Source of the DNA: Erysipelotrichaceae bacterium
GTDB taxonomy: Bacteria; Bacillota_I; Bacilli_A; Erysipelotrichales; Erysipelotrichaceae
Direction: 5' to 3'
Length of the DNA stretch: 47,720 bases
NCBI GenBank assembly: GCA_030525525.1
Contig: JAUNEN010000017.1
Coordinates: 1-47,720, forward strand
Below, piece after piece: positions 31,269 to 32,868 of the stretch. The first letter of the stretch is position 1. Each line of letters begins with the position of its first letter. A model generated the notes under the pieces. That model did not search any database, was not told the origin of the DNA, and saw nothing but the letters and a program-made list of their open reading frames with translations. The position numbers and the translations under genes are program-made.

Positions 31269-31286
31269 AAAACCTCCAAAAAAATA

Positions 31287-31349
31287 AAGCCGAGAAACAA
31301 AAAATGCGTATGTCCGCCCGGACTTACGCATCTGTTTGCTGCTCAGCTC
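31287..31349 (-). promoter_or_regulatory. Structured leader with terminator hairpin (candidate attenuator) of the MATE gene
   Basis: Minus-strand RNA: ATGCGTA and TACGCAT (31331-31325 with 31310-31304) pair, continued by GTCC/GGAC around GGGC, and are followed by TTTTTTGTTT, the form of an intrinsic terminator. AAACA just before it can pair with TGTTT just after, and GAGCTGAG (31349-31342) with CTCGGCTT (31294-31287), so the whole leader can close into one long hairpin ending about 10 bases before GGAGG. No minus-strand gene lies upstream that would need a terminator here. No known riboswitch class was recognised. Confidence 0.6.
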
Positions 31350-31353
31350 AGTT

Positions 31354-31382
31354 ATTTTAATGTTTTGTTTTCAAAATTTCAA
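31354..31382 (-). promoter_or_regulatory. Probable promoter of the second MATE gene
   Basis: Minus-strand TTGAAA (31377-31382) and TAAAAT (31354-31359) lie 17 bases apart. Transcription would start near 31347, just at the beginning of the hairpin leader. Confidence 0.5.
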
Positions 31383-31467: not shown

Positions 31468-31974
31468 ATGAAAGACATAAGATTAACCAGAACCGCAGAA
31501 GCGATGATTCGTTATGACAGCGGATGTCCCAAACGCATCCAGCATTTTCTCAAAGTTCATGAATTTGCATCTCTGATTGCAGAGATGGAGAAGGTTGATG
31601 AAGAAACATCCTTCATCATCGAGGCAGCCGCTCTTGTTCATGATATCGGCATTAAAAATGCAATCGAAAAATACGGTTCGGAGGCCGGCCCCTATCAGGA
31701 AGAACTCGGTCCCGATGAATGCAGAAGACTGCTGAATGAAGTCGGCGGATATACGGATGCAGAGATTGAAAGGATCGCATACCTTGTCGGCAGACACCAT
31801 ACATATACAAATGTTGACGGCATTGACTGCCGGATCCTGATTGAAGCAGATTTCCTTGTGAATCTTTACGAAAGCGAAGTCCGCTATAAAGGAATCCTCG
31901 CAGCTGAAAAGAATATCTTTGAAACAGAAAGCGGCAAATGGATTCTGCATGAGCAGTTCGGCATCGCCGCATAA
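31468..31974 (+). CDS. HD-domain phosphohydrolase
   Basis: 168-residue protein of the HD superfamily. H31 (KVHEFA), H58-D59 (LVHDIG) and a later D (IEADFLVNL), with GRHHTY between, are the metal ligands of this group; it should hydrolyse a phosphoester or nucleotide. Size and layout match small stand-alone HD proteins of Bacillota, whose substrates are mostly unknown. A TATAAT at 31438-31443 is the likely -10 element, with a poor -35. The ATG follows a GGAG site. It diverges from the MATE gene and ends before a bidirectional terminator. Confidence 0.83.
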   Translation: MKDIRLTRTAEAMIRYDSGCPKRIQHFLKVHEFASLIAEMEKVDEETSFIIEAAALVHDIGIKNAIEKYGSEAGPYQEELGPDECRRLLNEVGGYTDAEIERIAYLVGRHHTYTNVDGIDCRILIEADFLVNLYESEVRYKGILAAEKNIFETESGKWILHEQFGIAA

Positions 31975-31992: not shown

Positions 31993-32021
31993 AAAAATCC
32001 GGATCGCTCCGGATTTTCATT
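31993..32021. terminator. Bidirectional terminator between HD and DUF3737 genes
   Basis: AAAATCCGGA and TCCGGATTTT form a perfect 10-bp stem around TCGC, with T-runs on both strands. Confidence 0.85.
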
Positions 32022-32031
32022 TTCACTCAGC

Positions 32032-32868
32032 TTATTCTTCGATGATGATCTTTCCTTCTGCCTTCGGATCATCCATGATGATTTCATTGACGCCTTTGAC
32101 ATGAATCACTCCCGATGCAGGATTTTTGATGGATTCCACAACATTGTTTACGGTCGCTTCGACTTCTGATTTTTCAAAGGCAAGATCGGTATCGATCATT
32201 GTGCAGTTGATCAGCTTCAGTCCTTTGCAATAGCATAAGGGCTGTGTCCCGATCAGCGTGCAGTTTTCAAATGTCACATTTTTACAGTACCAGGCAAGAT
32301 ATTCACCCTTGATCACACTGTTTCTGATCACGACATTTTCCGCATGCCAGAAAGCATCCTTGGTATCGAAATGACAGTTTTCAAAGACGGAATCCGTAAT
32401 ATACTGAAACGAATATTTTCCATGCAGGGTAACATCATCAAAATTAAGATGATCGGACCTCATCATGAAGTATTCGGATGTCACTTCCGTATGCTTCATC
32501 TCTATGCCTCTTGTGCTCCAGCCGAATTCAGCAGAAATGATATCGCTGTTTTCAATGGACACATCGGCGCACTCACGCAACGCCTTGATGCCGTGAAGCT
32601 TTGAATCTTTGATTCTGATCTTCTCCGAATACCATAAAGCAGCTCTGCAGTTTTCACTCATTGAGCTGTTTTCAATGAGCAGATTCTCATCATGCCAGAA
32701 AGGATAGCGCAGATTGAAATATGAATTTCTGACTTCTATATTGCGGCCTTCCTTCAATGCGCTTTCCCCGTCCGCAGGTCCGTCAAACTCGCAATTGATG
32801 ACTTTTAAGCCGTCTTCTCCATACAGTGCTCTTTCTTCATCCAGTTTCTGATTTTCAACAAGTCTCAT
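32032..32868 (-). CDS. DUF3737-family right-handed beta-helix-like protein
   Basis: A 278-residue protein matching DUF3737. It consists of many short repeats of the type xVxIENSxh (for example NLLIENSSM, VSIENSDII, VVIRNSVIK, VTFENCTLI), spaced about 20 residues, which predicts a right-handed parallel beta-helix like pectate lyases or pentapeptide-like proteins. No signal peptide, so it stays in the cytoplasm. Aromatic residues recur at matching points (RYPFWHDEN, AALWYSEK, DAFWHAEN, LAWYCKN). Its biochemical function is not known. The ATG at 32868 follows GGAGGTG. Confidence 0.82.
   Translation of the reverse strand: MRLVENQKLDEERALYGEDGLKVINCEFDGPADGESALKEGRNIEVRNSYFNLRYPFWHDENLLIENSSMSENCRAALWYSEKIRIKDSKLHGIKALRECADVSIENSDIISAEFGWSTRGIEMKHTEVTSEYFMMRSDHLNFDDVTLHGKYSFQYITDSVFENCHFDTKDAFWHAENVVIRNSVIKGEYLAWYCKNVTFENCTLIGTQPLCYCKGLKLINCTMIDTDLAFEKSEVEATVNNVVESIKNPASGVIHVKGVNEIIMDDPKAEGKIIIEE

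Follow-up and report, generated by a model that had tools for sequence, protein, structure and literature searches.

On the minus strand of the 47.7-kb window (by which we mean the whole stretch of DNA analysed), a gene for a MATE family efflux transporter is preceded by a sigma70-type promoter, a leader that can fold into one long hairpin, an intrinsic terminator and a Shine-Dalgarno sequence (Table 1). NCBIfam MATE models also match the 472-aa protein, but under their cut-offs. All segments quoted in an initial annotation of this DNA were found at 31287-31382 on the minus strand, and no other minus-strand promoter of the region is as well placed as the one that it had called well-formed. From the predicted start, the RNA forms a single long hairpin of -34.7 kcal/mol (RNAfold), compared with -17.9 +/- 2.9 kcal/mol for dinucleotide shuffles (z -5.7, 0/200 as stable), so that the long leader hairpin proposed there is real. 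It pairs GAGCTGAG (31349-31342) with CTCGGCTT (31294-31287), AAACA with TGTTT, ATGCGTA (31331-31325) with TACGCAT (31310-31304) and GTCC with GGAC, followed by TTTTTTGTTT.

The upstream gene on the same strand, encoding a DUF3737 protein, ends at 32032, about 690 nt away, and has an inverted repeat of its own (31994-32017), while the HD-domain gene lying between it and the leader (31468-31974, +) is divergent. The terminator therefore belongs to the MATE leader, in line with the earlier remark that no upstream minus-strand gene needs one. That no known class was recognised also held, with 0 matches to Rfam 15 in the window at the gathering threshold; a scan with a relaxed E-value, which covered 15 + 15 related loci besides the window leader, brought up no relevant family either. 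A literature text search for the core sequence described below or for a MATE/CarD motif returned nothing relevant, the supplements of motif surveys lying outside its scope, so an earlier unnamed listing is possible.

Table 1 Features of the MATE leader and gene in the window
Feature	Coordinates	Strand	Basis or remark
Sigma70-type promoter, TTGAAA-17-TAAAAT	31354..31382	-	-35 box 31382-31377, -10 box 31359-31354; 10/12 consensus matches
Aptamer-like core, two-helix fold with conserved asymmetric internal loop	31312..31350	-	Covariance models R3 and R2
P1 5' strand, GCUG	31344..31347	-	Partner 31318-31316; G31344 with C31320; covariation
P1 3' strand, CGGGC, G31319 bulged	31316..31320	-	Covariation
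P2 hairpin, GCA 31339-31337 / UGC 31330-31328	31328..31339	-	GC/GC part invariant by search pattern
Intrinsic terminator hairpin	31304..31331	-	5' arm 31331-31320 is core sequence (AUGCGUAAGUCC); 3' arm 31315-31304
U tract, UUUUUUGUUU	31295..31304	-	Sequence
Outer stem, GAGCUGAG/CUCGGCUU	31287..31349	-	Read-through RNA only; recaptures P1 5' strand
Shine-Dalgarno, GGAGG	31273..31277	-	Sequence
MATE family efflux transporter (MepA/FepA-like), 472 aa	29850..31268	-	PF01554, E 4.7e-27

The conserved core and its fold

We gathered MATE orthologues by protein similarity alone, and then examined the sequence 5' of their start codons. Nearly all of these leaders share a core of about 37 nt, [CU]GNG[CU]RGC-N3-8-NGCGUAARUCCRG (spacer usually 3-8 nt), followed by the complementary strand and a U run; in the window's relatives within Erysipelotrichaceae the core reads GCUGAGCAGC-N-UGCGUAAGUCCGGGC. 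The conserved unit is this core and not the long hairpin, with which its fold is mutually exclusive. The initial proposal of a candidate regulatory RNA before a MATE pump thus gains comparative support, but the long hairpin corresponds to the predicted OFF fold, and the sensing part would be the 5' 37 nt, refolded.

The core adopts a two-helix fold in which P1 closes the domain and P2 lies inside it along with a conserved asymmetric loop, a structure backed by 113 distinct copies. RNAalifold recovers both helices unprompted from the 113-row alignment A1, in which the named structure has 91.6% of its cells paired, compared with 80.7 +/- 0.7 after shuffling (0/500), and a covariation score of 0.371, compared with 0.166 (0/500). 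This shuffle control does not remove relatedness among the sequences; in a control that keeps relatedness, sliding the structure along the alignment, pairing is only 18-49%. The 56-sequence subset that leaves out window-type sequences gave the same outcome. The invariant positions are partly set by the search pattern, and none that it fixes was counted as evidence of conservation.

Compensatory changes in orthologous leaders, which the initial annotation had set as a test, are present across the 113 leaders, with P1 showing every Watson-Crick type as well as G-U; one P1 pair is paired in 112 of the 113 rows, as A-U, G-C, U-A, G-U and C-G. When 184 distinct copies are considered, pair 5-27 of P1 is formed in 183, where composition would predict 104; A-U, G-C, U-A, G-U and C-G are all common at this pair, and it tops the corrected mutual information by a wide margin; because it includes G-U, it carries an RNA signature. 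Pair 6-26 is C-G, U-G or U-A in all 184 copies, and both pair 3-29 and the closing pair of P2 (AU, CG, GU, UA, GC) likewise exceed expectation. Positions Y10 and R21 also act as a pair (UA 72, UG 26, CG 12). Taken alone the core fold is weak, at -2 to -4 kcal/mol with a P1 of just 3-4 bp, and in the window P1 contains one G-U pair and is without the 3-29 pair.

To place the window copy we used the hold-out model R3, built from 56 sequences without window-type leaders, whose sole match in the window is 31350-31312 (-), at 24.6 bits and E 1.9e-5, and which also recovers the window's relatives. Model R2, whose training set included the window copy, scores that copy at 28.2 bits, with no second match in the genome at E<=1.

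Distribution and associated genes

In Lachnospiraceae, the core pattern has 104 matches in 80/299 genomes, compared with about 8 for the reversed pattern. Among 103 distinct Lachnospiraceae matches in fetched loci, 86 have a terminator, and 63 of these 86 precede MATE genes from two subfamilies (34 close homologues and 29 distant ones), the remainder being associated with CarD-like genes (5), an 80-aa protein (6), PadR (1) or other genes (11). Model searches matched 14/299 genomes of the wider phylum, with MFS exporter genes among the associated genes, and, within the phylum of the window, 9/295 genomes, where the genes concerned in other Bacilli families are MATE and CarD, although the weakest matches of these phylum-wide searches are not all convincing. 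Genes for Cu/Zn SOD-like and cyclopropane synthase-like proteins are also found among those associated with the element.

CarD-like/TRCF-RID genes occur repeatedly with the same leader (L138, L210, L220, L240, L242 and L257), an unexpected link in that a family of RNA-polymerase-binding proteins shares its leader with efflux genes.

The element sometimes occurs in tandem, with 35 second copies observed. The conserved 80-aa protein (MKRVKAACICQTLHFMLKED...YLD) is often encoded between tandem copies, 5' of the MATE gene, at loci that include L070, L062, L098, L139 and L191, and has no significant Pfam or NCBIfam match. An upstream hairpin resembling P1 at some loci was rejected as part of the element, as it is the 3' end of the gene for this protein.

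Arrangement of promoter, core and terminator

A promoter lies just 5' of the core in 140 of the 170 copies other than second tandem copies, where 42 would be expected from mononucleotide-shuffled upstream sequence, and in 5 of the 35 second copies. In nearly all of these 140 copies the -10 box ends 8-12 nt before core position 6 (8 nt in the window), which places the beginning of the element at +1. A T run follows 189 of 203 core matches, and in all 205 terminator-bearing copies the terminator is built from the core itself. This is done in two ways, with the 5' box serving as a stem strand in 133/205 copies and the GCGUAARUCC strand in 72/205 (the window type); that the core sequence is kept under either wiring is what one would predict for a core that is itself recognised.

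Both wirings use core nucleotides, and the core fold and the terminator exclude each other. For the window RNA, the minimum free energy structure at 34 nt is P1 plus P2 (-4.2 kcal/mol), and at about 46 nt, when transcription has reached 31303, the terminator stands at -17.9 kcal/mol, versus -2.4 kcal/mol with the core fold enforced. Among window-type relatives the terminator changes in both of its arms, with ACGCGUA/UGCGCGU in L004 and GUGCGUA/UAUGCAC in L008 where the window has AUGCGUA/UACGCAU. Similar outer pairing is seen in most window-type relatives (L003, L004, L005, L008, L021, L022 and L025), but not in L006.

In several window-type relatives the ribosome-binding site additionally lies in a CUCC/GGAGG hairpin. 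In L003, L021, L025, L004, L005 and L022 the U run is followed by a conserved GCUUUGGCAGAA...CUCC segment, which the window does not have. The ability of this CUCC to pair with the Shine-Dalgarno GGAGG suggests an extra layer of translational control in these relatives, though not in the window.

Interpretation and competing explanations

The element combines a conserved, structured, aptamer-like RNA 5' of genes with an expression platform, the general make-up of a riboswitch. We propose, with a probability of roughly 0.6, that the leader is an uncatalogued cis-regulatory RNA acting as a terminator-embedded, ligand-sensing ON switch for efflux genes, all support for the switch reading being comparative and thermodynamic. 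In the simplest working model the terminator is OFF by default. RNA polymerase would initiate on the element's own first bases, and once some 34 nt have been made the RNA would form P1 and P2, exposing the loop G7 N G Y R / GUAARUCC. A signal, most likely a small toxic molecule exported by the pump, could then bind and hold this fold, in which case the core strand GCGUAAGUCC would be kept from its downstream complement, no terminator would form and the MATE mRNA would be made. When the signal is absent, the far more stable terminator would be expected to win within the next ~12 nt, and transcription would stop. The putative ligand is probably a substrate of the pump. The CarD, Cu/Zn SOD-like and cyclopropane synthase-like genes, however, indicate no single ligand, which counts against this reading.

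A more specific version, namely a new riboswitch class of about 37 nt that senses a toxic gut compound and switches on MATE/MFS pumps together with CarD-type and other stress genes across Lachnospiraceae, Oscillospiraceae, Erysipelotrichales and other Bacilli through two interchangeable terminator wirings, seems to us evenly balanced between right and wrong. As a candidate orphan riboswitch present in roughly a quarter of the sampled Lachnospiraceae genomes, the element is concrete and testable, and the window hairpin is a single instance of an RNA element that is widespread in gut bacteria and not in Rfam. Finding the ligand would also identify the natural substrate for a large group of unassigned MATE pumps and for the CarD-type genes sharing the leader, and the element would join HMP-PP and guanidine-IV among the few terminator-embedded sensors.

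Because P1 is short and the fold weak on its own, a protein could instead be the stabiliser, with the core serving as the site of an RNA-binding antiterminator or terminator protein (cf. PyrR, LicT, ANTAR) that would hold P1/P2 under stress. The small and weakly stable fold, the presence of one element before many unrelated genes, and the tandem copies (35 second copies, almost all promoterless), which resemble multi-site protein regulation, are all consistent with such a factor. Against it, no regulator gene adjoins the element throughout, and the window copy is the sole one in its genome. The best candidate among neighbouring genes, the 80-aa protein, probably does not act as a trans factor in general: a search of 14 genomes, run with no positive control, gave no match to it, and at least 13 of these genomes (the window's included) have the element or its MATE gene. 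Overall, we consider a protein-dependent switch improbable, at about one chance in four.

Among known RNAs, guanidine-IV (GGAM-1/mepA motif) often precedes MATE genes and is a transcriptional ON switch made of two hairpins joined by a loop-loop pseudoknot (PMC7736828), and Gd4v is a gut-enriched orphan with a guanidine-IV-like two-hairpin architecture, located mainly before PRK07324 transaminase genes and sometimes before MATE genes (PMC9788692). The MATE leaders made these our first hypothesis, and a divergent variant of either would share with the element its conserved nucleotides within the terminator, the ON direction proposed here, the gene family and, for Gd4v, orphan status, a terminator-based design and gut enrichment. 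We rejected this hypothesis on architecture and on the lack of model matches at SMR loci, and regard it as very unlikely. In both known RNAs the second of the two pseudoknot-joined hairpins is the terminator, whereas the element is a single P1/P2 domain from +1, and with the -10 box about 10 nt before the core there is no space for a first hairpin. Guanidine-IV is associated with SMR/sugE exporter genes, but R2 had no match at 17 SMR exporter loci, and among the genes that follow the element none was identified as SMR. By eye, the SMR leaders of L264, L265 and L271, with two hairpins and a terminator, appear guanidine-IV-like and unlike the core element; L271 has no Rfam match at the gathering threshold, and three other SMR loci carry guanidine-I.

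Two further RNAs were compared by description. The HMP-PP riboswitch (thiS motif), an ON switch of thiamin synthesis genes, is embedded in a terminator with an unusually conserved loop and has mutually exclusive folds (PMC6478431), and the HRC-8-4 motif is a terminator with conserved tip nucleotides, frequently found with hvrB and speculated to be a similar switch, by authors who predict that further simple switches of this kind exist (PMC8632094). Like the HMP-PP riboswitch, the element is compact and built into an intrinsic terminator whose formation excludes the aptamer fold, but the former has two stems, a possible pseudoknot and thiamin genes, while here the downstream genes are MATE, MFS, CarD and other efflux or stress genes; with HRC-8-4 it shares the conserved terminator-tip nucleotides, but not the hvrB association. 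A further difference from HMP-PP and guanidine-IV is that the same core is built here into either side of the terminator stem. We place the element in a putative separate class that would work in the manner of the HMP-PP kind, in principle its nearest relation.

A plain terminator or DNA operator devoid of RNA sensing, with the likeness among leaders reflecting common descent of MATE promoters, would fit the position at +1, but is hard to reconcile with an element found before non-homologous genes in several Bacillota lineages, with covariation that includes G-U pairs, or with two terminator wirings around one conserved core, and we give it little credence. Leader-peptide (ribosome-mediated) attenuation is the least probable explanation of all. 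It is common for antibiotic-resistance genes, and an ATG lies in frame at 31331, but this codon lacks a Shine-Dalgarno sequence close by and is not conserved, its place being taken mostly by CUG, GGC or AGC; the element begins at the transcription start and is conserved in structure.

MATE genes in the same set of loci also have other upstream arrangements. In L011, L012, L013 and L100, a different terminator-type leader with two ACGAUAC-like repeats (for example GCACGATACA...TGTTACGAAACAG...terminator) lies 5' of orthologous MATE genes, and in L100 it sits after one copy of the core element; its assignment to guanidine-II was rejected, as Rfam gave no match. In L014, L015 and L016, the MATE genes have no element directly 5', and the model match found about 700 nt further upstream probably marks the start of a longer operon.
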